Shown here in pieces: positions 12,103 to 63,582 of a stretch of 64,000 nt of DNA; position 1 is the stretch's first letter; every line of letters starts with the position of its first letter. Source of the stretch: Bolinopsis microptera (taxonomy: Eukaryota > Ctenophora > Tentaculata > Lobata > Bolinopsidae); assembly GCF_026151205.1 (NCBI RefSeq), contig NC_087078.1, positions 7,952,675 to 8,016,674 on the forward strand, written 5' to 3'. Made by a program: the position numbers and the translations under genes. Under the pieces are notes generated by a model. It was not told the origin of the DNA and searched no databases. It saw only the letters and a program-made list of their open reading frames with translations.

Positions 12103-12423
12103 GTGACAGATGTCGACTTTGCTGACGATCTTGCAATGACAACAGACACCGCAGAGCAAGCGCAAGATCTTCTCCTCAGTGTGGAGCTGGCTGCTAACTC
12201 CGTTGGCCTTCACCTCAACGAGAGTAAGACGAAGTACATCAGAGTCAATCTCTCTGAGTCTGACTCTACCGTCATTAAAGCAGCAAGTGGGCAGGAGATA
12301 GATCAAGTAGATGACTTTGTCTACCTTAATTCTGGACATGCTAAAGAAGGGCACCAGCCTTCCTGTGTTGAAGAGATAAGATCTGTTATGCTTGACCGCG
12401 ACGTGTGGCGAGGAATTGTATAA
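12103..12423 (+). pseudogene. LINE RT palm fragment (FADD box), copy A
   Basis: The open frame begins with DVDFADDLAM, the catalytic YxDD-type box of a non-LTR reverse transcriptase. It continues with SVGLHLNESKTKYIRVNL and QVDDFVYL, the region after the active site. The rest of the polymerase is absent. The second half of the fragment recurs at 20047-20280 in the tandem copy. Confidence 0.7.
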
Positions 12424-14228
12424 TAGCTGCTCCGACCAAGAATGAAGAAGCCGACTTAAGTCAGTCAGTAAGTCAAACCAGTTGTAGCGCGATGCACTAC
12501 TTGATTCACGATGTCAATCCTTCGCAGCTCGGTGAGGCACAGTGGTGCATTTCGCCGATCTACCGAAGTTGCGAGAAGCATTATTTGATGCGCGCGCGAC
12601 CCAGTATGCAGTAGTGCATCGCGCTACAATGCACTACTGGTGACTGGGTCGCGCGCGCATCAAATAATGCTTCTCGCAACGGCAGTAGAACGGCGAAATG
12701 CACCATTGTGCCTCACCGAGCTGCGAAGGATTGACATCGTGAATCAAAATGCACGCCGAATTGCTTGCAATGATGACTGATGAGGTACACTATTTCAAAT
12801 TTCACTCTATCCAGAGCGCGATAGCACATGGTTAAATGTTAAATGAACTACATGAAGCCCGAGGGCTCAGGTTATATATTAGAGCTTACTTACTTATTAT
12901 TTAATTGACGATCATGTCACCCTTTTACTTCCAAAGCAACGATCTCGATGAGAAGCAAAAAATGATCGTTTGCGCGGCGCGTTGAAGCGACAAAATCCTC
13001 CAATAAAATTTCATAATTAAGCTTTTATTTATTAACTGTTTTTATAAATATGAGCTTCAGATTGCTTAAGTTTTTAAAAAGCAAGGTAACATATTGCTTT
13101 GTTTCTAATTTTAGATTCATTTTAAAGTTCTAAACACAAATCAATTAATAGTTGAATTCAAAGCTTTAAAATTGAATCATATGTAATAAAAACCGAGTTG
13201 AGCCTTGATTGTAATGACAACATAAAATCGTGGTCTGAGGTCAAGATTTATAACAAAGGCTGTATTTCAAATTTCCAAAATACTGATCGTTTCTAATTAA
13301 TTTGTAGTTTCCTCATTAAAAGAATCATTCTGCACATAATTTGTTCCTATCACTGTTTGATCAATGGCATTGGTCGAGAAACAAGATTCAGTGCTGCCAT
13401 TTACATTATATGTGTCTAGTTATCCAGAAATAATTTGTTATTAAATAATCGTGTACTTTGGTGTTGTCCAGATTCTGCATAGTGGTGATAAAAGAAGCAG
13501 CGGTTCAAATTGCAGCTTTATCATGTCTGCATCTGTTTTATTAGCCTCTAGCGTGGAGAAAAAGTTCGTTTCAAGTTGTTACGAACCTACATCTCTTGTA
13601 GACCTTCCGAACATAACGTCAATTACAAATAGACGTATTTAGTCTTAGATTTAGTTCTTGTATTTAGTCCCTAGACCAGACCAAGGGTCTGAACTGTTTC
13701 TTGCAGTCTAGTAGACACCTACATAGCGTAGTTTCCTCTAATAGGTTCTTGTTTCATTGAATAGTTTCATGAAAAATGTCTTGTTTCATTGATTTTTTCA
13801 CGATTTTTACTCAATTTCCACCATTTTAAGTTGAACTTCAGAAAACAAAAATATTGTGCAGGAATAGTATACCTGTTGTCTTCAGGGGGTTCGGCATTGG
13901 CGAAGTAGAATGTTAGAGTAGGTGCAAAGCCAAAAGCTTTATCTTCTTTTGAGTGATGGTTTGGGTCACAAGGTATAATTGGATTCATTCTTTTGATTTT
14001 CTTTGAGTAGAAGTTATTGTTGATGAAAATGATTGATTAAGTCTGATAAAATTGATTGTTTATATGTTGAATGATGTGACCTGATCTCGTAAGGTAGGTT
14101 AATTGTCACCTAGCCTAATAAGGGTGACACCATTCAAGTTTGCATGGGATGATGTAAGCCCTGCTTGGGCTGGTTCATAGTAGTCCGCAGACTGGTGCAC
14201 GGACTGGGTCTGAATTTTTTTCTTTTTT
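12151..14228. repeat. Tandem duplication, copy A (~2.08 kb)
   Basis: This stretch is repeated almost base for base in copy B (14248-14295 continued at 20047-22058). It holds the end of the LINE RT fragment, a 263-bp palindrome, about 1.5 kb of AT-rich non-coding DNA, and a minus-strand open stretch (13767-13988) that looks like a first exon with a GTATAC donor. Only scattered substitutions and a few small indels separate the copies, so the duplication is recent or the copies have been homogenised. An assembly artefact cannot be excluded. Confidence 0.9.
12491..12753. repeat. 263-bp palindrome (copy A)
   Basis: The left arm from 12491 (GATGCACTACTTGATTCACG) pairs with the right arm ending at 12753. 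The centre, around 12609-12639, is itself a hairpin (CAGTAGTGCA ... TGCACTACTG). It includes GCGCGCGACCCAGT and its inverted partner. Possibly a foldback MITE. The same structure is present in copy B. Confidence 0.9.
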
Positions 14229-14295
14229 CCCTTGGTAATTCTCATCAGCAGAGCAAGCGCAAGATCTTCTCCTCAGTGTGGAGCTGGCTGCTAAC

Positions 14296-15128
14296 TGTTA
14301 GAATCTTAATTCTATTTGTAGCTTGTTTTTGTACTTCATATTACTAACCCTGTATCTCACTTTAGCAAAGGTTTAGTTCCAGTGATTGTATATACAGTGT
14401 TGGGGTAAAGGGACTCCAGAAGGCAGACAAGGCTCGACTCCAGACTCTAGTTGAAGTAACAGAAGAGAGAGGAGTGTCCAGTGTTTAGTTGACTCCAGAC
14501 TCTAGCGTAGCAGAAGGGAGAGGAGTGACGTTGTCGACTCCAGACTCTAGCGTAGCAGAAGGGAGAGGAGTGACGTTGTTTTAGTGATCCCACAGATTCC
14601 AGTCGACAGATACTATCTGTGTTCTGTGACGTGGAAAGAGTGGTAAGTAGTTTATAGTTATAGTTTAGTAGTTTAGTCTAGGAGTTCCCGCTTCCTCTTT
14701 CACTTTCATTTATAGTTTCACGTGGATTACCTTTCACTTTACTCACGGTAGTTTTCCCCCAGGGTTTTGTTTTATAGTTATCAGTTCCAGTTTTACTTGA
14801 AGTCCTCATCATTCAGAAGTCCCTCATATAGTAAGAAGAACATCATCATCAGGAGTAGTAGTTTTAATTTAATAGTAGTTTAATCTAATAGTAAAAAAGA
14901 CATTGTTTAGTTTAGTATTGAATTGTGTTTTAACTATTAGTCAGAGCAGAGTAGTGTGAGTTACTGAGTCACACCATATCAATCATTCACTATTTAAGAG
15001 AGTACATTGTAGAGTAACAAGGTTACTTTTGACACAAGATTTGTATAACCTCTTTATTCATCTAATTTGTATTTATAATAATTGAGTATTATTTGTTATT
15101 TAATTAACCCAAGAACAGGGTTCCAACA
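14296..15128 (+). repeat. 5' LTR
   Basis: 833 bp, TG...CA ends. It carries two tandem copies of a unit of about 45 bp (GACTCCAGACTCTAGCGTAG...) near 14485-14580 and a TA-rich 3' half. No certain TATA box was assigned. Confidence 0.95.
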
Positions 15129-15129
15129 G

Positions 15130-15139
15130 TGGTAGCAGG
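15130..15139 (+). other. Primer-binding site (tRNA-iMet)
   Basis: TGGTAGCAG is complementary to the 3' end of metazoan initiator tRNA-Met including its CCA tail. The match weakens after nine bases. One base separates it from the LTR. Confidence 0.75.
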
Positions 15140-15240
15140 AAGAACTACGTTACACCGGACCGTATTTATTTTTTGTATATTTTAACTAACACTTAACACC
15201 TAACACCCGATTTCAGCTTTCAGATTCTTCTACATCCATC

Positions 15241-17344
15241 ATGGGAAGTGACAAAGTACCTGTTCTCGATGAGAAGTCCAACTATTCAGATTGGAAACGG
15301 AGAGTTCAGTGGTGGAAGAAGGTAACCACGGTCAAGCCTGAAGCAGGAGCAGCTGCATTAATCATGAATATGTCTGGAAAACCAGAAGCTGTTGCTATAC
15401 AGCTGGACGTGGAAGAATTGTCCAAAGCAGGAGGAATAGATGTTCTCATTGCTGAGCTGGACAAGTTATATGAAAAAGACCAGACTCAGTCAGTCTTTAC
15501 GTCCATTGACAGCTTCATGAACTACAGAAGACCCAAGGAAGTGCCCATGGAAGCAGGAAGAGTATGTGAGAGAATTTAGCCATCGTTACAAGAGCCTTGT
15601 GCAGAAGCGTGGTGCTACTGTGGTATTTGAAGATGGAGTACTAGCGTACTTCTTATTACATCATGCTAATCTCTCGGACCATCAAAAGACGTTAATCAGG
15701 GCAACGGTCTCTAAGTTAAGCTACGAGAATATGGAATCCCAGCTTAAGAGAGCATACGGAGAAGATTATACTAATACATCTTCTTCTTCATCAAGCGCAA
15801 GCGGTGAAACATATTCCATCGGAAAACCAAAGATTAAAGAAGAGCCTGTAAATACTTATTTTCAACAGTACGACATCAACAATTCAGAACATTTTGGTGA
15901 TGACCAGAACAACCAGGAGGAAGACCCTCAGAAAGTTTTTTATCAACAAAGACACCACCAACACAGGGATTTTTATCCATCTAAGAGACCCTTCGGACAA
16001 AGACCCTTCGGACAAAGACCTGCGTTTCAAGGACAGAGTTCAGGAAACGTGTATCAACAAGCTCCATTTAGATCCAGACAAGGAGCACAAGAGCAACGAT
16101 CAGGACCCTTACGTTGTCATATTTGTAAGGAAACAGACCATTTGATGAGAGACTGTAAGTACAACACATTTGGAGAGAAGAAGCTTACATTCTTTGAGTC
16201 TGACTTTAAACTAAAAGACGAAGACAAGTGTCTTATGGGAGAATCGACAAATAGAGCACTTTTAGATACAGGTGCTAGTTCCACAGTGTGTGGGAAGAAA
16301 TGGCTGACAGCCTTCGAGGAATCTCTGACATCAGCTGAACAAGAAGAGGTCAACGTGACTCCTTGTGAGAAGAATTTTTGTTTCGGGGATGGAGATGCAG
16401 TTACAGCCAGGATACAAAAAGCACTCCCAGTAACAATATGTGGTCAGAAAGTAACTTTAAACGTGTTTATTGTGGAAAATGATATTCCTTTGTTACTGTC
16501 TAGAGAGTCCATGAAAAAGATGAAGATGAAGATCGATACTGAAACTGACAAAGTTTATGCTTTCGGAGGAGAAGAGAATCTAGTGATCACTAAGTCAGGA
16601 CACATGATGATACCCATAGGACGATGTGAAAGTTCTATCAGCCAAACAGATTCTGGAAGAACTAATCATGCAACAGAAATTAAGGTCCGTCCTGTTTTAG
16701 AGGAGAAGATTACATCGCCATGGTCACTAAGTGACGATGAAAGTGATCAAGAGGAGGAGTTAGAAACATTCAGTGGAGGTGACCTTGAGATTGTGCAAGA
16801 CAGGGAGTCAGAAAGTGATCTAGAAGGAGAGCCAGAGGATCATGGAACTGTGAGTTCAGTTTCAGGGAACGTGAATCAAGACAGTGATCTAGCAAGTGAG
16901 CTAGAGGACCATGGAGTTGTGAGCTCAGTTTCAGGTAATGTGGATCAAGACAGTGAGCCAGAAAGTAAGCCAGAAATTGAGACAGAAATTGAGCCAGATG
17001 ACCATGGAACTGTAAGTTCAGTTTCAGGGAGTGTGAATCTGTCAGATCTGTCAGTGAATCAGTCGGATTGGGAAAGTGTGTGTCAAACCAGAACAGGCGT
17101 GGGTGTAAAGAAGAATGACATTATCAGGTTCAGATCCTCGGAGAGTGATGATTGGAATAATGCCTTGGTGATAGGTAGAGCCGGGAAACCTACAGGGAAG
17201 AACAAAAATCTTTACAATGTACGACTGGACGAGTCAAACGGTGAACCCGTATCAGTTGAGTTGGATAACTGTACAAGTGCAGAGGTTAAAGATTGTTCAG
17301 GATGTCTCACGAAGAGAGGTGCAGTTTTCAGCAAGCTCGCTTAA
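15241..17344 (+). pseudogene. LTR element gag-protease, one frameshift
   Basis: Frame 1 (15241-15579, 112 aa) holds the gag N-terminus (YSDWKRRVQWWKKVTTV), typical of metazoan copia gag. Frame 2 (15566-17344, 592 aa) continues gag. It has a CX2CX4HX4C zinc knuckle (C184, C187, H192, C197 of the second frame), an aspartic protease core DTGAS at 234-238, an acidic tail with three imperfect repeats around DHGTVSSVSG, and a C-terminal segment (WNNALVIGRAGKPTGKNKN) that in full-length copia lies after integrase. The frames overlap by 14 nt and joining them needs a net +1 shift. A seven-base insertion near 15550 would explain it. Programmed frameshifting is the alternative. No restored sequence is given. 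Confidence 0.85.
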
Positions 17345-19208
17345 GTCATAGATCAAGGATACTGTGAATATGTCAGAGAGAGTATAACTGTTTTGGACTT
17401 TATGTTGTGGAAAAGAGAAGGAATATTTTTGCTCAAATTATTTGTTGTTTGAAATGTCAATTTGGTTAAACAATAACTTTTTAACGTCATTTGTAATAAA
17501 CTTTTAACTTTAAATGTGTGTGTATATATTAGTATTGTTAGAATTACCAACTTTGTAACGAGTCATTTTTACATTTTTAACCTTTCAGAGACTTTTAACA
17601 TGCACGAGGTGTTTGTATTTAACAATCTTTTAAACATTTGTAACTCTTTACACGTATATTAATTTTGTGTTTTTATGTTCTAGAGAAGTTTCTCGAACAG
17701 AAGTTTTGGGAAGGATATTTTGACAATTTTTTGTCGTTAGTTCATATTTTTTACTGAAGAATGTAGTAAGTTGGGAATGTTTGATGAAAAGTTAGTGAAT
17801 CCCATTTTTAGGAACCAGTCTATCCTTTCTTTTCTTTTCTCTTAGTCTGGTAACTGAACTTTGGTTGTATTTGCTAAATTTTCAACAATTTTGGGAGAAA
17901 GATAGATTAGTTAGCGAATTTAGACGTGTGTACCAGCTTTAGCGCTCCTTTTCTTTGTGTTGTAGCGCACGGTCACATTTGTCAGTTGATTTGCTAAATT
18001 TTCTATTACATGGTGTAGAGATAATAAGGATTAATAGATACAATTTAAAGTACATTTTGTACGTGACATGTGTAATAAAATTACCGCTAACAGAATATTT
18101 CAGATTCCTACTTCTAAAAGTCTAACATTTCAGTTTCAAACTTACTTTTCAGAAAGACGATCCTTTTCTTCTCAAAGACATGAAAGTGTTTACCTGATAT
18201 TACTTTATTAACTTGCATCTTCTGTAGGAAGTGTTAACAGGGGATGTTTGGTATTTTCTGTTGGGATGAGCTTGGAGCAGCTTGCTCAGCGTGAGTTTTT
18301 TGGTTTTATAAGAATGCTGTCGTTTCGATCAACATGCTATTACATGTTCTTCACTGATCCCGAGCCTTTAGGGACTCAGTTTGAACCTGTTTTTAAACGA
18401 CAGAATTCATGTATTTTACGTTTTAGAACTGTTTAGTACAGTGGTGTGTGTCAATGATTGGTTAGTGACTCATTATTGACTCTCAAGAGGTTGTGTTTAA
18501 AGCTTGAATAGCTCCTAATATTTAGTTGTAGTACGCAGTTTTTCTGTCATTACGATAACTCGATACAGAAATCTCTCAAGATCACACGTGATTACTGTGT
18601 TGGACGGGTATTTTTTGTGCTCCTGTCAGTCTTAGAACGATGTTTCAATTCCGTTCATAGAAAAGAGATTTTCGTATTAAGAACTTTGATAGTTAATTAG
18701 CTAATAGTTAGACTGTATTAATTCTATCGGACGTTTTGTACAAGTATTATATCTCTCAGATCTCACGCTCAGCGTGGAAGGCAGTCATTTTAGCCACTAG
18801 CCTGTTTTACAGCGGATGTTTTTCCCGCGTTAACAGAGATTTAATCCACTTGTACCACGTGACTCGCCGAATATGGAATAATCGTTAACTGCTTTTTTAG
18901 TTATCTGCTTTTATGACAGTGGACATGACACGTATTAGATTTGCCTTTGTTTGAGCCGCGCATTTGTAGCTCAAACTCATAGAAAGTATCTTTTTCGTTT
19001 AGCGCGCACGACACGTTTTTGTGTTGCGTGTGGGGATTAGAATATTCTTAACTCTACGGTTTTTGCTAGAGTTTATTTCCTAATTTTAACTCGGATAGTC
19101 GGATAGTATTTTTTAACAAAGAAAGTATAGGGAGTTATGACTTTAAGATTGTAAAAGTCATGAGTTAAATTATTAGTAAGTATTTTTTCTTTTTTAAAGT
19201 AGGGGGAA
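17345..19208 (+). other. Non-coding 3' internal region of the LTR element
   Basis: About 1.86 kb between the gag-protease stop and the 3' LTR has only short ORFs and no integrase, RT or RNase H motifs in any frame. It is AT-rich in its first part. It ends in the polypurine tract. Confidence 0.7.
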
Positions 19209-20041
19209 TGTTAGAATCTTAATTCTATTTGTAGCTTGTTTTTGTACTTCATATTACTAACCCTGTATCTCACTTTAGCAAAGGTTTAGTTCCAGTGATT
19301 GTATATACAGTGTTGGGGTAAAGGGACTCCAGAAGGCAGACAAGGCTCGACTCCAGACTCTAGTTGAAGTAACAGAAGAGAGAGGAGTGTCCAGTGTTTA
19401 GTTGACTCCAGACTCTAGCGTAGCAGAAGGGAGAGGAGTGACGTTGTCGACTCCAGACTCTAGCGTAGCAGAAGGGAGAGGAGTGACGTTGTTTTAGTGA
19501 TCCCACAGATTCCAGTCGACAGATACTATCTGTGTTCTGTGACGTGGAAAGAGTGGTAAGTAGTTTATAGTTATAGTTTAGTAGTTTAGTCTAGGAGTTC
19601 CCGCTTCCTCTTTCACTTTCATTTATAGTTTCACGTGGATTACCTTTCACTTTACTCACGGTAGTTTTCCCCCAGGGTTTTGTTTTATAGTTATCAGTTC
19701 CAGTTTTACTTGAAGTCCTCATCATTCAGAAGTCCCTCATATAGTAAGAAGAACATCATCATCAGGAGTAGTAGTTTTAATTTAATAGTAGTTTAATCTA
19801 ATAGTAAAAAAGACATTGTTTAGTTTAGTATTGAATTGTGTTTTAACTATTAGTCAGAGCAGAGTAGTGTGAGTTACTGAGTCACACCATATCAATCATT
19901 CACTATTTAAGAGAGTACATTGTAGAGTAACAAGGTTACTTTTGACACAAGATTTGTATAACCTCTTTATTCATCTAATTTGTATTTATAATAATTGAGT
20001 ATTATTTGTTATTTAATTAACCCAAGAACAGGGTTCCAACA
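19209..20041 (+). repeat. 3' LTR
   Basis: Same length as the 5' LTR, and no differences were seen by eye. This points to a very recent insertion. Confidence 0.95.
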
Positions 20042-20046
20042 CTAAC

Positions 20047-20280
20047 TCCGTTGGCCTTCACCTCAACGAGAGTAAGACGAAGTACATCAGAGTCAATTTC
20101 TCTGAGTCTGACTCTACCGTCATTAAAGCAGCAAGTGGGCAGGAGATAAATCAAGTAGATGACTTTGTCTACCTTAATTCTGGACATGCTAAAGAAGGGC
20201 ACCAGCCTTTCCTGTGTTGAAGAGATAAGATCTGTTATGCTTGACCGCGACGTGTGGCGAGAAATTGTAGCTGCTCCGAC
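20047..20280 (+). pseudogene. LINE RT fragment, copy B remnant
   Basis: Starts at TCCGTTGGCC directly after the target duplication of the LTR element and repeats 12199-12420 with small indels. It covers the segment after the FADD box only, and the frame is further damaged compared with copy A. Confidence 0.75.
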
Positions 20281-20327
20281 CAAGAAGCCGACTTAAGTCA
20301 GTCAGTAAGTCAAACCAGTTGTAGCGC

Positions 20328-20592
20328 GATGCACTACTTGATTCACGATGTCAATCCTTCGCAGCTCGGTGAGGCACAGTGGTGCATTTCGCCGATCTAC
20401 CGAAGTTGCGAGAAGCATTATTTGATGCGCGCGCGACCCAGTATGCAGTAGTGCATCGCGCTACAATGCACTACTGGTGACTGGGTCGCGCGCGCATCAA
20501 ATAATGCTTCTCGCAACGGCAGTAGAACGGCGAAATGCACCATTGTGCCTCACCGAGCTGCGAAGGATTGACATCGTGAATCAAAATGCACG
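20328..20592. repeat. 263-bp palindrome (copy B)
   Basis: Second copy of the hairpin, with arms and centre as in copy A and essentially unchanged between copies. Confidence 0.9.
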
Positions 20593-22739
20593 CCGAATTG
20601 CTTGCAATGATGACTGATGAGGTACACTATTTCAAATTTCACTCTATCCAGAGCGCGATAGCACATGGTTAAATGTTAAATGAACTACATGAAGCCCGAG
20701 GGCTCAGGTTATATATTAGAGCTTACTTACTTATTATTTAATTGACGATCATGTCACCCTTTTACTTCCAAAGCAACGATCTCGATGAGAAGCAAAAAAT
20801 GATCGTTTGCGCGGCGCGTCGAAGCGACAAAATCCTCCAATAAAATTTCATAATTAAGCTTTTATTTATTAACTGTTTTTATAAATATGAGCTTCAGATT
20901 GCTTAAGTTTTTAAAAAGCAAGGTAACATATTGCTTTGTTTCTAATTTTAGATTCATTTTAAAGTTCTAAACACAAATCAATTAATAGTTGAATTCAAAG
21001 CTTTAAAATTGAATCATATGTAATAAAAACCGAGTTGAGCCTTGATTGTAATGACAACATAAAATCGTGGTCTGAGGTCAAGATTTATAACAAAGGATGT
21101 ATTTCAAATTTCCAAAATACTGATCGTTTCTAATTAATTTGTAGTTTCCTCATTAAAAGAATCATTCTGCACATAATTTGTTCCTATCACTGTTTGATCA
21201 ATGGCATTGGTCGAGAAACAAGATTCAGTGCTGCCATTTACATTATATGTGTCTAGTTATCCAGAAATAATTTGTTATTAAATAATCGTGTACTTTGGTG
21301 TTGTCCAGATTCTGCATAGTGGTGATAAAAGAAGCAGCGGTTCAAATTGCAGCTTTATCATGTCTGCATCTGTTTTATTAGCCTCTAGCGTGGAGAAAGA
21401 GTTCGTTTCAAGTTGTTACGAACCTACATCTCTTGTAGACCTTCCGAACATAACGTCAATTACAAATAGACGTATTTAGTCTTAGATTTAGTTCTTGTAT
21501 TTAGTCCCTAGACCAGACCAAGGGTCTGAACTGTTTCTTGCAGTCTAGTAGACACCTACATAGCGTAGTTTCCTCTAATAGGTTCTTGTTTCATTGAATA
21601 GTTTCATGAAAAATGTCTTGTTTCATTGATTTTTTCACGATTTTTACTCAATTTCCACCATTTTAAGTTGAACTTCAGGAAACAAAAATATTGTGCAGGA
21701 ATAGTATACCTGTTGTCTTCAGGGGGTTCGGCATTGGCGAAGTAGAATGTTAGAGTAGGTGCAAAGCCAAAAGCTTTATCTTCTTTTGAGTGATGGTTTG
21801 GGTCACAAGGTATAATTGGATTCATTCTTTTGATTTTCTTTGAGTAGAAGTTATTGTTGATGAAAATTATTGATTAAGTCTGATAAAATTGATTGTTTAT
21901 ATGTTGAATGATGTGACCTGAGGTAGGTTAATTGTCACCTAGCCTAATAAGGGTGACACCATTCAAGTTTGCATGGGATGATGTAAGCCCTGCTTGGGCT
22001 GGTTCATAGTAGTCCGCAGACTGGTGCACGGACTGGGTCTGAATTTTTTTCTTTTTTCATATTGACAGATTTTTCTAAAGTTTCAATAGGAATTTAAATA
22101 AATAAATAAATAAATAAAGTCAATTTTTACAGCACAGCAATATATATCTAAATATCAGATCCTCTGTAATCATAATGTATAAAAAAAGGAGCTTTTCTCT
22201 GTGCTGAAGGATGAATCAAGGCAGATCATGGTTCTGTTAGCAGGCCACCCTAGTTATGGACAATACATATATATAAAATAATTAAATTATAATTTTAAAA
22301 TTGTGTCAAGAATGAACTAAAACATAACTCAGGGTAAAATAGACGTATTCCCTTCGTCAAATTAACTATTTACAATACTAAACTTAAACGAACTCCGGGT
22401 AAAATAAACGTAATCCCTTTGTCGTTCTAGATACAAAACTTATAAGGATTGTCAAACTTGCTATTTACAATAAGTTAATAAATTAATACGGTTGAAAATT
22501 ATTTCATATTCAATAACAATGTAGCATCAATATAATTGATACAAATGAGGAGCATACAGTGAGAATTGCACATAACAGGAGGACTGGAGGTATGGAGCAA
22601 TAATGATTGACAGTGCACCTTTCCACTGATGTTCCTAATTTCCTGTAATAGCTTAATAGGCATGGAAATACTTTGATTGCAGGGGATAGATTGGATTCAC
22701 TTATGTACTGAGATAACTTAACCGAAATAACATAACTGC

Positions 22740-25700
22740 CTAGATACATTGGCTAGTGTTGGGTGGGATCATGAATTTATCGTAAGAGTTATCCCCTTGG
22801 TAATTCTCATCAGTTAGCAACATATTCATAAGAGTTTCTTTGTATAACTTAGAAAATTTCTTAACGTCGTCACACTCTCTAAGGGACTTTGGTAATATGT
22901 TCCAGGCCTTAGTTCCTAGATAGTTAAACTCCTTGTGAGATCTTGATTTAGGAGTATAAAGATTGCAGTTTTCTGCCTCACGTGATCCACCAGAAATATA
23001 CGAGAATTTCCCGATAAAATGCTTTGGACATGTTTCATTGATTATACGGTACATATATGAGCTAAGATGAACCTGTCGTCTCAAATGGAGAGGAAGCCAT
23101 CCCATATTTTTGTATACATTAACCGACCTCTCTCTGATGTTTACATCTAGGGCTATTTTAGCAACCTTTTTGTACATGATATCTAACTCTCCTAGTCGTT
23201 TTTTATATGTTCTTGACCAGATGGTGTCTAAGTAGTCAAAATGTGGCAACATAAGTGCATTAGCAAACATCTTCCTGAACTTAAGAGGGAGAAGTTTTTT
23301 TGATCTATACATAGCACCAATTCTTTTGGATATCTTTTTCTTAATGTTATCAATATGTTCATTAAATGTCAATCTGCTGTCAACTATAAGTCCAAGGTAC
23401 TTATGGGATTTAGTTTCACAGATTACCAAAGTAAGGTCATCACAAATTTCAACAAGGATGGCATCAAGGTTAGGCTTAGAGTCAAGGATCATTAGTTTTG
23501 TTTTTTCATTATTCAGGGATAGTTTATTAGCCTGAAGCCATCTGATAACTAATTTCAACTCTTGTTTGATGTTACCATAGTTTCCTCTAGATATATTGTC
23601 AAAATATAATGCACCGTCATCAGCAAATAGATAAGGTTTAGAAAATAGGCATGCATTAGGCAGGTCATTGATAAAAATGCTGAATAGAATTGGTCCTAAT
23701 ATACTTCCTTGAGGCACTCCAGAGTTCAATGAATGTAAACTGCTTATCCTACTCCCAACTCTAGTTTGCTGTAATCTATCTGTGAGGAAGCTCCTAAACC
23801 AGCTCAATGCAGTATCTTTTATTCCATAATGCTTCAGCTTTTGAATGAGAATATCATGGTTAACAGTATCAAATGCCTTTCTGATGTCCAGGAAGATAAT
23901 TGCAGGATGCTTGGCACTGTTCTTAGCAGTAAATATACGATCAAACAGATCTAACATGAGATAAGTTGTAGAGTGATCTTTACGGAAACCATATTGATGC
24001 TCTGAAAGTATTCCCTTTTCATCAAGATATTGAGTCAGTTGGGAGTTCACACAAAATTCGATGCACTTTCCAAGAATCGGTAAAATTGAGATTGGTCGAT
24101 AATTACTAGGATTTTCAGTATCACCATCCTTATGGATTGGGGTGACTTTTGCAACCTTGCAGCTGTTTGGCATGATGCCACTGGATAAACTCAAATTTAC
24201 AAGATGTGTTAATGGAGCAATAAATGCAGGTAAAATTTGTCTAAACACTCTCAATGGTATATGATCATTAGTGGATTTGCTACAAGGGATACTTGCCACA
24301 TAGTCTAAGATATTGGACTCAGTTATTTCAGTAAAGCTATTCAAGCTGGTCTCGTTGTCAATCTGCTCATTTTGTAGATAAGATAGAAATTCATTTTCAT
24401 TTTCCAGCTGCACTTCTGCTTGGATCTTTGGACCTATTTCAGCAAAATATTTATTGGTGGTTTCAGCATCAAGATTGTTATTGATATTGTTAGCTTTAAC
24501 AGGCAGATTTGATGCTGTCTTTATCGTTTTCCATACACCCTTTAGATCATTCATGGCACACTTGGCTTTCAGTTCTGTTGCTAAGTTAGTCTTCCTATTA
24601 ATTCTAGACAAATAGGTTGAATAGTTTCTCTGCCGTTTATATGCCATCCATAATGAGTCACATTTATTACAGTGTATAAGACCATTTGGATGTATACGTC
24701 TGTTCTTGTTGTGTGTTAAAAATTTACGGTAAAGTTTCCCTTTCAATTTCTTACTTTCTAAAAATTCTGGAGATGGCTTATGGATGTAATCACTATGGCA
24801 CTTAATTTGTTTAATTGGACAGAAGTGATCATAGTAGTGATCAATATGTTCGTTTAAACCATCAACTGCATCATTCAGACTAGTTGAATCTATTATTGGT
24901 CTATAATCACAGGTTTCCAAAAATTCTTTAAGAGCAGTAACATTCATTTTGCTGTGATCTCTTATTAGTAACTTCTTGAATTTTGAGGCCTTATGCACAT
25001 TGAAATCGACAATGAACTTTACGACCTGATGATCTCCTATACAATCATCAAGGACTTTGCAGTCAAGAAACTTGGAGTAAGTGTTTGTTATGACAACATC
25101 GATTGTGGTCTTTGTGATTCTGTTTCCTAGTTTAGCAATGCGGGTAATATCCTGAACTACCTGTACCATTCCAAACATTTTCATTGTAATGTCTAATTTC
25201 TTATAGTTCATACTGCTGATGTTGTTTTGGTCTACATTTACATCACCCAGCCAAATAACATTCTTACTTCCTATACTCATCATGCAGTCTGTCATATAAT
25301 CTAAAAATTTGTCAAGAGGACTAAACAACTCAGATCTGTAGAAACAGCAGATGAAAATATTGCAATCTGTAAGATGGATCCAAATAGCCTCGATTTGGTC
25401 ATATTGCAAAACTAAGTTTAGTTGAATCATTTTAAACTTTATGTGCTCACTGATGAGAATGCCACATCCCCCATGACCATTGTCGTTAGGACGGTCTTTG
25501 CGGATAAAAGTAAAATTCTTGGGTAGGTTTAGACTGGCTGAGTCAATATCCGACTTAAGATTTGTTTCATTCAGGCATAAAACATCTAATTTCTCTTTCC
25601 AGATTAGATCTTGGATTTCAAGACATTTTGGCATACCTGTTAGTCCTCCCTGCATGTTGCAATGTCCCACTGCAAGCTTTTTGGCATGGTATGAAACTGT

Positions 25701-25760
25701 GATTTTACTAATGCACGGGTTAATGCAAGAACTGCTGTGAGAGCATGAAAATTTTTCCAA
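22740..25760 (-). CDS. LINE ORF2: APE-type endonuclease and reverse transcriptase
   Basis: 1,006 aa. The N-terminal endonuclease/exonuclease/phosphatase domain (about 30-250) has the expected active-site series: N35 (HCNMQG), E65 (LNET), D173 and N175 (GDVNVD), D221 (TTIDVVIT) and H244 (GDHQVV). The reverse transcriptase (about 520-790) has NYRPISILPILGK at 553-565, FLDIRKAFDTV with D625, GVPQGSILGP at 681-690, and the catalytic FADD at 712-715. No RNase H domain follows, in keeping with the CR1/L2 group. The C-terminus is a short basic region. The start Met is the first in the frame, 165 bp after ORF1, so a reinitiation-type mechanism is likely. The frame is uninterrupted, which suggests a young copy. 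Confidence 0.95.
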   Translation of the reverse strand: MEKFSCSHSSSCINPCISKITVSYHAKKLAVGHCNMQGGLTGMPKCLEIQDLIWKEKLDVLCLNETNLKSDIDSASLNLPKNFTFIRKDRPNDNGHGGCGILISEHIKFKMIQLNLVLQYDQIEAIWIHLTDCNIFICCFYRSELFSPLDKFLDYMTDCMMSIGSKNVIWLGDVNVDQNNISSMNYKKLDITMKMFGMVQVVQDITRIAKLGNRITKTTIDVVITNTYSKFLDCKVLDDCIGDHQVVKFIVDFNVHKASKFKKLLIRDHSKMNVTALKEFLETCDYRPIIDSTSLNDAVDGLNEHIDHYYDHFCPIKQIKCHSDYIHKPSPEFLESKKLKGKLYRKFLTHNKNRRIHPNGLIHCNKCDSLWMAYKRQRNYSTYLSRINRKTNLATELKAKCAMNDLKGVWKTIKTASNLPVKANNINNNLDAETTNKYFAEIGPKIQAEVQLENENEFLSYLQNEQIDNETSLNSFTEITESNILDYVASIPCSKSTNDHIPLRVFRQILPAFIAPLTHLVNLSLSSGIMPNSCKVAKVTPIHKDGDTENPSNYRPISILPILGKCIEFCVNSQLTQYLDEKGILSEHQYGFRKDHSTTYLMLDLFDRIFTAKNSAKHPAIIFLDIRKAFDTVNHDILIQKLKHYGIKDTALSWFRSFLTDRLQQTRVGSRISSLHSLNSGVPQGSILGPILFSIFINDLPNACLFSKPYLFADDGALYFDNISRGNYGNIKQELKLVIRWLQANKLSLNNEKTKLMILDSKPNLDAILVEICDDLTLVICETKSHKYLGLIVDSRLTFNEHIDNIKKKISKRIGAMYRSKKLLPLKFRKMFANALMLPHFDYLDTIWSRTYKKRLGELDIMYKKVAKIALDVNIRERSVNVYKNMGWLPLHLRRQVHLSSYMYRIINETCPKHFIGKFSYISGGSREAENCNLYTPKSRSHKEFNYLGTKAWNILPKSLRECDDVKKFSKLYKETLMNMLLTDENYQGDNSYDKFMIPPNTSQCI

Positions 25761-25926
25761 TTTATGCTGCTATAAACTTGTCAGAATAAGATAAATTGCA
25801 GAACTGGCAAATTTGTATGAGATAATAACAAAACTTTCTAAAACTTCAATAAACATGAGGAACAATGTGTAATTATCCCTTATCTAGAATCTAGATGAAA
25901 TAAATGTTAACAATCTTTCTGAAAAT

Positions 25927-27801
25927 TCATACTTGCTTATGGGCCCAATACTTCAGAAATTTAGCAAGTCGAATAACACCGCTTGTATTGAGGTGACAGT
26001 TATCAGATATTTTTGCAGATGGTCTGGCAAAATAAAATTCTTTCCTGAATCCACTTCTATTATAGTTAAATAAATTATGGGTGCTAATGTAATTAAAACA
26101 AGAATCTTTGCTACACATATCCTTAATAACCTTATTCAGCTCTGCCACAACATCATTGCGGCCTTTTGTACTCCTGGGAAGAATATTGAGAACATTAATT
26201 GTTGCATTCGGATACACTGACTTGAGATAATTTAAGAGATTACTAATGTCACCCGCTGCATCCTTCAGTGACTTTGAGCCAAAATAGACTGTGTTCACAT
26301 TATTAGTTCCTGTCATAATATAAATAATAGATGGGGATGGAACGGAGTGTAGGTCAGTTTTTAGTTTATTTAACATTACTTTGGCATCAGCCCCAGGATA
26401 AAACAGTTTACTAGCACTAACAGTGGACGATGATAACTTGTCCGCATCAAGAAACCTGAACATAGAGCTGCTTATGAATAGGACAGACTTTTGTGAAGCT
26501 TTGGCTGGCTGTTTGCAAACTGAGAGTGCAGGTGAAGAAGAGTCTGTCTGTTTGTGTCCTGAATGAGGGATGGGTGGGGGCCGTGAACGCAGACCAAACT
26601 CAGTTGACTGAGTGATCCTAGGGGGCTTCATCAGTCTTAGGGTGATGCTGATCCGGGGTTCATCACACATTTCGTCTGGCAGTATCTCATGTTGAAAGTC
26701 AGCCTGAGACAATTTGGACATGATGAAGACATCTCCATGCTGAAGCTGCACAGAGCCCACAACTTCATTGCTGCCGTTTGATCTAATTTGCAGTGTTCTC
26801 GTCGCACCAAGTGAAATGGTTACAATATCAGAGTGTTCTACAATACATGATTCAGAATCGCTATGAGCTGGCATGAACTCTGCTCCAGTTTCATATAGAT
26901 TGACGAGAATACTATTGTGTCTGAAATTGGGTAATATCACATTAATGTAGGAGCTGAGTTTAGCAAGGTAGGAATCATTGTGTACACTTTTTGGGTCATG
27001 TGTTGCACCTGAATACTCATAGGGAAAGTCACCAAAATAAACCGATTTCCTGTTTTTAAAACCGTGACTGAACTCAAGTTCTTCCATTAATAGATCAAGT
27101 GAAAATTTAGAGAATGGACCATCATCTAGTAGGGTAACTGGTTTCACTGGTGATGGGGAACAAGTTACAGATATATTCATTGGCCCCGGTGTTATAGGAT
27201 CGTAGACAGGGGCAGGGACCAAGTTTGGATATTTGTCTCTGGGCTTAGGGGTGTTGATCCGTGATTCACCAGTAGCAGTAGATACAGGGAGATCAGACAC
27301 ATCATCCTCGTCTGCCATAACCTCGTTAACAACAATCTCACTGATAACAATCTCGTTTCCAACAACCTCCTGTGGAACAACCTTGTCCACGACATCGTTG
27401 TCAACAAACAAACTGTCCGATACAACATCTTCCACAACAATGTCATCTACATCAAACGCTTCTACTTGATTGATAACAACGTGTGACTGAGGGGTAATGG
27501 TTATGATCTCACATTCAATCTCCTCTGATAAGTTCGGCAGCAAATTTTCACACTTAAAACTCTGTTCTTGTATTTGAGTTTGATCTGATATGAGACTATC
27601 ATTGTACTGAGCAATGAGATCACTAGTTCTGATAATTTCATTCAATAAAGACAACTTTTTTTCTAAAAAGTCAATCTTGATGTCTTTTGACAGACAATTG
27701 TTACAGTTCTCTGATTTTTCAGACTGGAATGAAAAGTTCAAATGTTCTAAAGGGCGCTCACAAAAGTGGAGACTAATGTCTGAGCTCTGATTATTTGACA
27801 T
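25927..27801 (-). CDS. LINE ORF1: AlkB-like dioxygenase plus SGNH esterase
   Basis: 624 aa. Residues about 40-80 could be a short coiled coil. Residues 100-180 are acidic and low-complexity, rich in Val, Asp and Glu. Residues about 225-392 form an AlkB-like Fe(II)/2-oxoglutarate dioxygenase: YFGDFPYEYSG at 255-265, iron ligands H313 and D315 (PAHSDSES) and H371 (DFQHEILPDE), and the 2-oxoglutarate-binding pair R383 and R389 in PRISITLRLM. Residues about 438-624 form an SGNH/GDSL-type esterase: the block I region is FISSSMFRF with Ser444-446, block III is GTNN at 498-501, and the terminal pair is D600/H603 in DNCHL. SGNH esterases are known from ORF1 of CR1-like elements. The AlkB domain is the unexpected part. 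AlkB enzymes remove alkyl groups from nucleic acids, so repair or demethylation of the element RNA is a possible role (inference). Confidence 0.9.
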   Translation of the reverse strand: MSNNQSSDISLHFCERPLEHLNFSFQSEKSENCNNCLSKDIKIDFLEKKLSLLNEIIRTSDLIAQYNDSLISDQTQIQEQSFKCENLLPNLSEEIECEIITITPQSHVVINQVEAFDVDDIVVEDVVSDSLFVDNDVVDKVVPQEVVGNEIVISEIVVNEVMADEDDVSDLPVSTATGESRINTPKPRDKYPNLVPAPVYDPITPGPMNISVTCSPSPVKPVTLLDDGPFSKFSLDLLMEELEFSHGFKNRKSVYFGDFPYEYSGATHDPKSVHNDSYLAKLSSYINVILPNFRHNSILVNLYETGAEFMPAHSDSESCIVEHSDIVTISLGATRTLQIRSNGSNEVVGSVQLQHGDVFIMSKLSQADFQHEILPDEMCDEPRISITLRLMKPPRITQSTEFGLRSRPPPIPHSGHKQTDSSSPALSVCKQPAKASQKSVLFISSSMFRFLDADKLSSSTVSASKLFYPGADAKVMLNKLKTDLHSVPSPSIIYIMTGTNNVNTVYFGSKSLKDAAGDISNLLNYLKSVYPNATINVLNILPRSTKGRNDVVAELNKVIKDMCSKDSCFNYISTHNLFNYNRSGFRKEFYFARPSAKISDNCHLNTSGVIRLAKFLKYWAHKQV

Positions 27802-28276: not shown

Positions 28277-45705
<17,429 letters not shown>

Positions 45706-61920: not shown

Positions 61921-63582
61921 TTACACAATTTTTCCGTTTCGAGTACGACACACCCTTTCGTGCTTTGTAGAGGAGTTTCGCATGTGCCAATCCCAACAGT
62001 CTTCGCAAAAGTAGTCAAGGCACTTACGGCAGTAAATCGGACCAGGATATTGGCACTTGGAGCAATTTTCGTTCTCTCGAATATAAGGGTCTATTTGAAT
62101 CCTTTTATCGACCTTAGGGGAGATACACTGAACTTGGACATACTTTTCTTGGATGGCTCTCTGATAGCTCTCCAAGCTCGAGAAATTCACCCTGCCAGAA
62201 CCCAGAGGATATTTATACTTGTCGGTGTCTATTTCAACATAGGCTACATTGCCAAACAAGTCGTTCATGACCTTGGAAAGGCCGGTCGCTGTAAGCATCC
62301 CATGAAGTCCTCCGACAAACACTTGATGGTGCATGTTGACCTTGTCTTTAGTACCAATGACTTTGGTATCATCATTCAAATTCCATGGTATGACTTGTAT
62401 TTCCTTGCTATGCATTTTCTCTGATCGCACATGGTATTTGTACATGGTACCGTCTGAGACATCACGGAATACTCTTGCTGAGTAAGATCGACAAAACTCT
62501 AGCAGGTTGGTAACGGAGGTGGCATCATCAAAGACTATGTAAACATATCCTTTAGGTTTTTGGCCATTTTTGTTGGGTGGCCACTCTACCGCCAGACTTC
62601 CAAATACCTCGAAAGTTTCTTTAAGGTTCTCATCTTTGATATCCCAGGGGACGCCACCCAAGAAAACCTTTCTTGAGTATTTGTTATCATTGGCATCCTT
62701 GGGAGGGAGCTCCCCGGTCCACTTAAGAGGGGGACGAGGAGGGGCGCAAAATGGCTTCAGCTTCTCTTTTGGCTGTCCGTAGCTAACATCAGTTCCCTCA
62801 GGAGGATTATATACGTCATGATGGTCACGAGAGTTTCCCAACTGCATTGGGTTCAGTTTTGCTTTAATCGGGGTAAGAGAGAATGATGCCATTTGTTTCT
62901 TCACAGGCGAATGGTGACGAGACAGCGATGCATTAGACAAACTAGGCATGAATGCCCGGCGACTACCAGGGGTCCGGCTGAAGTCGACTGCTGGTGACTT
63001 TTGGAAACCCATTACTGGTGATTGTATCAGGTTTTTTAAGTTCTCCATGATATCGGTCATCGGACTATTCTGCTTTTTATCTCTGAAGTTGGGAATTTCA
63101 AGAAGAGATTTCTTTTTAGGGGATTGATATTTAGGAAAGCTATGTATGTTGGTCCATCTTGGAGAGTATGATTTCCATGTCTTTCTTTCTGGAGTGGTTG
63201 GTTTGTAGCTTCTGCTGCTGTAAAAGCTTTCTGGAGAAGTCTTGCCCCATCCAAATTCTCCAATACTGTTCATGTTATCAGTCGGTCTGTTTGTCTCCCA
63301 CTGGAAAACATCATTTTAGTAAATGATGGATCCGGATATAAGATCTTAAATCCAGAAGAAACAAATCAAATATTGACTGTGGCAAACTGAAAATAAGCTA
63401 TATACCGATATAGCTTTATAATTTAATGCAATATTATGCAAGTTAACATCTGTATATCATTGCAAGTGACTTTTAATAATGAGGAAAAAAACGAAATAAA
63501 AATATTACCTTTTTAATCTCATCAAAGTCGGTATTTACAATTATGACCGTATCACTTTCAACTATTCTGACTTTATAACTTC
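61921..63582 (-). CDS. CPEB1: Cytoplasmic polyadenylation element-binding protein 1-like
   Basis: Binds U-rich CPE motifs in 3' UTRs and controls poly-A length and translation, classically in oocytes. The main exon is 61921-63300. A preceding exon at 63509-63582 (24 codons, TDFDEIKK at its end) joins in frame ahead of the Met at 63271-63273, so the true start lies further upstream and is not in view as a complete exon. Numbering from that Met (450 aa): Ser/Pro-rich regulatory region 1-195 with SP/TP sites; RRM1 with RNP2 KVFLGG at 202-207 and RNP1 KGYVYIVF at 241-248; RRM2 with QVFVGG at 317-322 and SGRVNF at 359-364; ZZ-type zinc-binding domain with C404, C407, C415, C418, C423, C426, H430 and H438. 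The VEIDTDKYKYPLGSGRV and QIDPYI segments fit CPEB1/Orb rather than CPEB2-4. Both RRMs and the ZZ domain appear complete. Confidence 0.92.

Follow-up and report, generated by a model that had tools for sequence, protein, structure and literature searches.

Does a retrotransposon of a comb jelly carry a nucleic-acid repair enzyme of its own, and what would such an enzyme do for it? The question is raised by a 64,000-nucleotide stretch of the Bolinopsis microptera genome (contig NC_087078.1 of assembly GCF_026151205.1, positions 7,952,675 to 8,016,674 of the forward strand; hereafter the window). A preliminary description had read one of its open reading frames as the first frame (ORF1) of a long interspersed nuclear element (LINE), fusing an AlkB-type dioxygenase to an SGNH esterase. 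We report that the element, judged from its sequence, is a LINE of the apurinic/apyrimidinic endonuclease (APE) type whose ORF1 fuses an AlkB domain, of the 2-oxoglutarate (2OG)-Fe(II) dioxygenase kind, to an SGNH hydrolase domain (Table 1). The frame lies where it had been placed, on the minus strand, and every residue named for it was located (H313, D315, H371, R383, R389, GTNN at 498 and DNCHL at 600). A chance frame was rejected, 624 open codons being expected at about 4e-18 given a stop frequency of 0.062.

The AlkB assignment is firm by profile, by comparison with Protein Data Bank (PDB) sequences and by predicted fold, as the preliminary description had supposed. ORF1 matches PF13532 over residues 261-389 with 66.9 bits (cut-off 31.2, E=3.6e-18). 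Its nearest solved relatives by sequence are human ALKBH3, which aligns with residues 251-393 (E=8.8e-15; 35% identity over the segment), then ALKBH2 and E. coli AlkB; among the same PDB sequences, ALKBH5 and FTO gave no match to the domain up to E=10. In an AlphaFold2 model built with an alignment of bacterial AlkB proteins, the core has a predicted local distance difference test score (pLDDT) of 86-97 in blocks over residues 251-390 (59.3 for the whole ORF1). Foldseek places four ALKBH2 matches first, at 1.1-1.7 Å over about 150 columns, with ALKBH3 chains just after them at 1.9-4.7 Å, and by pLDDT and Foldseek alike the model has the double-stranded beta-helix fold. When viral models were searched, AlkB proteins of plant viruses, picorna-like viruses and giant viruses stood among the top 50 of 607 matches. 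The HxD...H iron triad and the RxxxxxR pair are both present, and of the 40 columns whose conservation reaches 90% or more across 49 bacterial AlkBs (rows drawn from the best 80 of 259 prokaryotic relatives returned by an alignment search) the domain keeps 25, including the iron triad, N301 and Y303, E317 and both arginines.

The domain is not confined to one copy. In the assembly (264.65 Mb, 232 contigs), ORF1 matched at least 81 places (71 of 960 candidates scored), with families named A, that of the window element, to J. Family A has 20 stop-free copies at 98-100% identity, 19 spanning residues 1-624 and one residues 1-622, the others being truncated or carrying stops; ORF2 matches the full 1006 codons in one piece in 14 of the 19 other family A copies fetched (L099-L117), and five are broken or cut. 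Other families are about 42% identical to ORF1 (ORFs of ~611 aa) or 37% (~537 aa), and another is 50% identical over AlkB and 40% over SGNH (~645 aa). PF13532 was passed by all 12 further transposon ORFs scanned, at 59.6-83.3 bits. Every family from B to I passes it with its ORF1 (one per family; D via L123). SGNH motifs are readable in the ORF1s of B-I, and Pfam sees GDSL weakly in them, for H not at all. A reverse transcriptase and/or an endonuclease follows ORF1 in each of the nine LINE families checked (A-I): RVT_1 was found in all of B to H, with none in the fetched piece of I. For the APE profile, B, E, G, H and I exceed a cut-off, C and D fall short of it, and the scanned frame of F gives no score. 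In E, G and H (L134, L135, L137) the ORF2 frame begins with a PHD-like segment rich in Cys and His, which the endonuclease follows; no Pfam zinc finger matched these frames at E 0.01. A human ALKBH3 query returned at least 150 genome matches (150 of 496 candidates scored), of which the best three are host genes, while among the remaining 147 many fall in ORFs whose sizes recur; the SGNH domain as query returned at least 151 (150 of 444 candidates scored). One weak SGNH match (L141, 28%), the sole one of its kind fetched and the only examined locus found through SGNH alone, has the AlkB motifs too.

The catalytic residues are conserved across copies: HxD.E, H and RxSx[TS]xR are present at every one of the 42 transposon loci examined (41 fetched plus the window). 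None of the three results that the preliminary description had named as refuting it was obtained. Constraint on the domain was measured in 19 intact family A copies (the window plus 18; the 626-aa copy L115 was left out), whose mean synonymous divergence (pS) over ORF1 is 0.010. Within ORF1 of this family, constraint is strongest on AlkB. The ratio of nonsynonymous to synonymous divergence (pN/pS) is 0.10 for AlkB, 0.42 for the N-terminus and 0.26 for the linker with SGNH, from synonymous to amino-acid variants of 8:3, 9:16 and 11:12, and the binomial P against neutrality, with variants treated as independent, is 0.0004, 0.066 and 0.007, respectively. None of the variants falls on a catalytic residue that was checked. 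In other comparisons, the corresponding ratio for AlkB (dN/dS) is 0.08 for D-D2, 0.12 for B-C and 0.17 for A-B, with dS near saturation for the latter two, and it is 0.05-0.18 among four loci of Helitron type (L128, L129, L139, L140). The earlier suggestion that the domain appears to be maintained has the support of purifying selection in family A, but not in family E, to which we return below.

The Helitron-type loci place the domain in a second transposon class. Three loci found with the ALKBH3 query have frames of more than 2000 aa (2225, 2459 and 3226; L129/L130, L139 and L140), and all three, though fetched in part, hold PF13532, DUF6570 and Helitron_like_N in one frame. SGNH lies N-terminal of AlkB in two of them (L129, 43.7 bits; L139, 29.6 bits; cut-off 32.9), an order that is the reverse of that in the LINEs; L140 gave no SGNH match, its fetched piece starting inside an SGNH-like region. 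The L129 frame continues into L130 and is open for at least 3018 codons, and L130, the only Helitron with its downstream part fetched, encodes a PIF1 helicase (E=5.1e-25). L128 is a shorter frame related to these loci. As a class, Helitrons are bounded by 5'-TC and a 3' hairpin-CTRR. Because many transposable elements, including those of a different class, carry the AlkB-SGNH pair, it appears to be a kept tool and not an accident.

Two other features of the preliminary description, an SGNH esterase and an intact ORF2, are less clear-cut. The catalytic residues of the SGNH domain are present (S446, G470, N500, D600 and H603, invariant in 19 of 19 family A copies), and the domain aligns with platelet-activating factor acetylhydrolase (PAF-AH) Ib (PDB 1fxw, E=0.0009), weakly with the ZfL2-1 ORF1 esterase (4c1b, E=0.029) and with PHROG 14008 (E=2.5e-9). 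Lipase_GDSL_2, however, reaches 23.6 bits in the window copy, below the 32.9-bit cut-off that just one of 12 other ORFs scanned passes, namely Helitron L129, and GDS is replaced by SSS in the ORF1s read from families A-D. CE2 esterases are among the Foldseek matches of the full-length model at E about 2e-9, with a root-mean-square deviation of about 20 Å across two domains; modelled alone, the SGNH domain has low confidence (52.5), with PAF-AH as best match at E=0.022 and none at 0.001. As for ORF2, its frame is open and RVT_1 matches at E=6e-37. Exo_endo_phos scores 21.7 bits (1.9e-4) against a cut-off of 24.5, with motifs present that we take to be those of an AP endonuclease (N35, E65, GDVNVD and GDH); RNase H gave no match in the ORF2 profile scan. 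In the window copy no in-frame ATG stands ahead of the APE motif-I Asn35, the first Met being codon 36. The same holds for 19 of 19 other fetched family A copies, one of which has a stop there, and this implies that ORF2 starts at a non-AUG codon or relies on reinitiation or splicing. Between the flanks searched, no direct repeat of 10 or more bases that could be a target-site duplication was found.

Table 1. Features of the AlkB-bearing LINE, in positions of the window
Feature	Position	Strand	Details
ORF1, 624 aa	25927..27801	minus	Acidic low-complexity N-terminus, AlkB domain, Pro/Ser-rich linker, SGNH domain
Predicted helix, residues 39-72, possible coiled coil	27586..27687	minus	AlphaFold2 model, block pLDDT about 42-73
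AlkB-type 2OG-Fe(II) dioxygenase domain, residues 250-395	26617..27054	minus	N301, Y303, H313, D315, E317, H371, R383, R389
SGNH (GDSL) hydrolase domain, residues 437-624	25930..26493	minus	S446 (SSS replacing GDS), G470, N500, D600, H603
Inter-ORF spacer	25761..25926	minus	TGA stop of ORF1 shares bases with an ATG (ATGA), whose frame is just 7 codons long
ORF2	22740..25760	minus	Presumed AP-endonuclease motifs N35, E65, GDVNVD, GDH; reverse transcriptase FADD
(TTTA)n run, probable 3' tail	22094..22118	minus	Read by eye; another repeat starts at 22058

Where did the domain come from? As regards origin and REARRANGEMENT, a tree of 26 AlkB domains unites LINE families A-E and G-I in one clade (ultrafast bootstrap, UFBoot, 95). 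Outside this clade fall family F, which groups with cellular rows (96), the Helitron-type loci and the three host genes. Of these genes, L089 and L090 cluster with human ALKBH3 (87) and L091 clusters with human ALKBH2 (100); their identities to the human ALKBH3 query are 50%, 41% and 40%. The LINE domain shows no grouping with animal ALKBH3 in this tree that would mark it as an ortholog. The tree is to be read with caution, since it is midpoint-rooted and built on 154 columns, with long branches and one row (H_L127) cropped short; the full family H protein has H and both Arg. Position 385 is Ser in 12 of its 13 transposon rows (the cropped H row has Ser in the full protein) and Asn in 13 of 13 cellular rows. 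In a second tree, with the 49 bacterial rows and human ALKBH2 and ALKBH3, the terminal branch of the window domain is about 2 substitutions per site long, against 0.5-0.7 for the human proteins, so that it is no recent copy of a human-type ALKBH2 or ALKBH3. The single AlkB domain found no relative in prokaryote contigs, and no relative was confirmed in viral contigs searched with ORF1, the AlkB domain, a three-sequence AlkB alignment and ORF2. Phages hold AlkB relatives in 12 records, at 26-34% identity among the ten listed, and no relative of the SGNH domain. Two trivial origins were rejected: a host ALKBH3 pseudogene, because the host genes are separate and the copies are dispersed and linked to ORF2; and bacterial contamination, because a PRPS exon adjoins the element, copies occur on many contigs and the domain is far from all bacterial rows.

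Within the genome, ORF1s appear to have been exchanged between elements, since two pairs of families share ORF2 far more closely than ORF1 or AlkB. The B and C elements (L119 with L131, and L132 with L120) are 97.6% identical over ORF2 and 3' DNA; the fetched parts of their ORF1s align over just 633 bases at 71%, and both keep AlkB (the N-terminus of C lies outside the fetched part). Families G and H are 68% identical in ORF2 and 34% in AlkB. Exchange of ORF1 has been described for other LINEs in the accessible part of PMC4120745.

What the enzyme might do is suggested by its relatives. AlkB and ALKBH3 enzymes strip N1-methyladenine (m1A) and N3-methylcytosine (m3C) from single-stranded DNA (ssDNA) and RNA; ALKBH3, ALKBH2 and E. 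coli AlkB are of this m1A/m3C type, ALKBH3 being an enzyme of ssDNA and RNA. Both modifications stop reverse transcriptases. We favour, with a probability of roughly 0.55, the reading that AlkB acts in cis on the single-stranded intermediate of its own LINE, repairing N1-A and N3-C methylation; its enzyme activity, its substrate and its benefit to transposition are all things we infer here. Within the ribonucleoprotein, the ORF1 AlkB would use Fe(II), O2 and 2OG to remove Watson-Crick-face methyls (N1-A, N3-C) from the element RNA, and perhaps from the first cDNA strand. On a template so cleared, the reverse transcriptase would not stall, and longer cDNA would result. Its SGNH partner may serve to recruit the complex to membranes, a role proposed for ZfL2-1 in the accessible text of PMC3905857. 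The Helitron fusion fits repair of a single-stranded intermediate, since the rolling-circle movement of Helitrons exposes ssDNA.

Several observations weigh against such a repair function. Fifteen of the 40 strongly conserved bacterial AlkB columns are lost, among them the Asn two residues past the first Arg (Ser385); in a leave-one-out count even the most atypical bacterial row retains 88% of such columns, which puts the domain well outside the bacterial range. Every one of the 42 transposon loci has Ser at position 385, where the cellular rows all have Asn; Asn301, kept in the window copy, is replaced by Thr in 7 of 13 transposon rows. The Asn residues at the equivalents of 385 and 301 contact 2OG in E. 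coli AlkB. The N-terminal lid part of AlkB is short and poorly predicted (pLDDT below 50 at residues 233-245 and 44-54 in the block 221-250; the PF13532 match begins at position 57 of the 194-position profile), and the sequence therefore does not reveal the substrate. Conservation of the motif has its own caveats: most of the 42 loci were found by similarity to AlkB or ORF1, so that broken AlkB copies are under-sampled, and L112 holds a second, partial AlkB match that fails the motif. Selection is likewise not uniform. Five of nine between-family AlkB pairs are saturated and give no ratio, and among seven family E loci compared pairwise, AlkB dN/dS is 0.3-1.4 on small counts (0-6 synonymous and 1-10 amino-acid differences, with 3 of 21 pairs lacking any synonymous change), so that constraint is not shown there; these ratios may reflect decay after insertion, because four of the seven loci have frames of just 407-501 aa. 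Finally, Helitron proteins act on DNA, and a single substrate for both transposon classes is an assumption.

The enzyme might instead serve counter-defence, erasing a methyl mark by which the host would silence the RNA or DNA of the element, such as N6-methyladenosine (m6A), m1A or N6-methyladenine in DNA (6mA), or acting on host transcripts. We consider this unlikely. TET/JBP dioxygenases, which are reportedly found in fungal DNA transposons, would offer a parallel. Closer at hand, the AlkB protein of an orchid Ty3/Gypsy element demethylates m6A in vitro, according to the accessible part of PMC9289625. That precedent is, however, ALKBH5-like, whereas the LINE domain is nearest ALKBH3, ALKBH2 and AlkB and has no match to ALKBH5 or FTO up to E=10. 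In human cells, moreover, m6A promotes L1 and ALKBH5 suppresses it, in the portion of PMC7873242 available. The preliminary description had put forward repair and counter-defence together, with m6A among the marks; m1A/m3C repair is the part that we favour, and the m6A part is the weaker because of these relationships.

A role without catalysis, or on something other than nucleic acid, seems more doubtful still: the AlkB fold would bind nucleic acid, form a structural part of the ribonucleoprotein or modify protein. The Ser at 385 in place of a near-universal Asn, the Thr at 301 in many rows and the divergent, reduced lid would all suit such a role, as would the altered first GDSL block (SSS) of the esterase. 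So would the lack of any Pfam match to an RRM or a zinc knuckle in ORF1, since another part of the protein must then bind RNA. Yet the iron ligands and both Arg are present at all 42 loci, Tyr303 is kept in 13 of 13 transposon rows, and AlkB is the part of ORF1 under strongest constraint in family A; a mere binding fold would have no need of HxD/H. That the domain is a passenger, a captured piece of a host gene without function in the element, is scarcely credible: transposons do capture host gene pieces and family E is without clear constraint, but 37-50% identity between families speaks for deep diversification, family A is under purifying selection, separate host ALKBH3/2-like genes exist, and AlkB is found on both sides of the B/C ORF1 exchange and in LINE and Helitron proteins.

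Repair in cis can be widened into a more general proposal, which we advance tentatively and at slightly less than even odds. AlkB plus SGNH would be a transposon module, fixed in diversified LINEs and, in reversed order, in Helitrons, through two or three acquisitions or through transfer between classes. It would keep single-stranded intermediates (RNA, cDNA and rolling-circle ssDNA) free of N1-A and N3-C methylation, as a counterpart of the AlkB of RNA viruses.

How does the element compare with known systems? It is reminiscent of the SGNH-type (Type IV) ORF1s of CR1, L2 and RTEX elements, for example ZfL2-1 ORF1p (PDB 4c1a and 4c1b): both have the SGNH domain at the C-terminus of ORF1, an N-terminal helix that may be a coiled coil, and a following ORF2 with APE and reverse transcriptase. 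The window LINE differs in having AlkB between the N-terminus and the esterase, and SSS for GDS. AlkB does not occur in the accessible text of PMC3905857 or PMC4120745. The Phalaenopsis Ty3/Gypsy element likewise encodes an AlkB-type 2OG-dependent dioxygenase, there an RNA demethylase in vitro, although in the available part of PMC9289625 it is a plant long terminal repeat (LTR) element with AlkB as a separate, ALKBH5-like (m6A) ORF, unlike the LINE ORF1 fusion nearer ALKBH3. Plant RNA viruses of the Flexiviridae and Closteroviridae share a single-stranded intermediate and an HxD/H/RxxxxxR AlkB inside a larger protein (PMC544882, as far as accessible); they differ in that the larger protein is a replicase polyprotein, in having no reverse transcription, and in that SGNH is unmentioned in the same accessible text. 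Human ALKBH3 and ALKBH2 and the host genes L089-L091 have the fold and the catalytic set in common with the LINE domain, but they are cellular genes with Asn (RxNLTFR) and are separate in the tree. Helitrons and Helentrons whose RepHel proteins have gained extra domains (RPA, OTU, AP endonuclease) are described in PMC6431247; the extra domains here, SGNH and AlkB, are not listed in its Helitron section (section 9), nor does "oxygenase" appear in that paper. Retrotransposons with DNA methyltransferases are known too, from the available part of PMC5890265. The preliminary description regarded AlkB as no standard LINE component, and we found no earlier report of an AlkB LINE in the open-licence literature, a search that did not cover AlkB in Helitrons. 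SGNH ORF1s, AlkB in RNA viruses and AlkB in an LTR element were thus already known; what appears to be new is AlkB in a LINE ORF1, of particular interest for its spread over two transposon classes in one genome.

The window holds several other features. About 475 bp upstream of the ORF1 start and divergent from the LINE, positions 28277-28459 on the plus strand carry the apparent first coding exon of a ribose-phosphate pyrophosphokinase (PRPS1-like, E=2.6e-25), beyond which long simple repeats occupy 28932-29998 (poly-G, units of 9, 33 and 60 bp, and a CTC-rich array of about 850 bp). On the other side of the LINE lies a probable LTR retrotransposon (14296-20041), with 833-bp repeats at 14296-15128 and 19209-20041 that are 100% identical, gag-protease-like ORFs at 15241-17344, a weak zinc-knuckle match and no long pol ORF; 2-kb direct repeats (12194-14229 and 20042-22058, 98.6%) flank it. 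A fragment resembling another LINE reverse transcriptase (12103-12423, plus strand; FADDLAM, read by eye) overlaps the start of the 2-kb repeat. An uninterrupted 450-aa CPEB-type ORF (61921-63273, minus strand; RRM_7, CEBP_ZZ) is possibly a retrocopy or a single-exon gene.

Taken together, these observations bear on what an ORF1 protein can be. The LINE ORF1 proteins known so far are binders of RNA or membranes, or chaperones, and the ORF1 described here carries an apparent nucleic-acid repair enzyme. If that enzyme is active, chemical damage to or modification of the template would be a strong enough brake on retrotransposition to repay the cost of about 150 codons. The recurrence of the pair, in reverse order, in Helitrons suggests that its target is the single-stranded intermediate common to both classes, and the young family A, with its 20 near-identical stop-free copies, together with its diverged relatives, provides natural variants for comparison.

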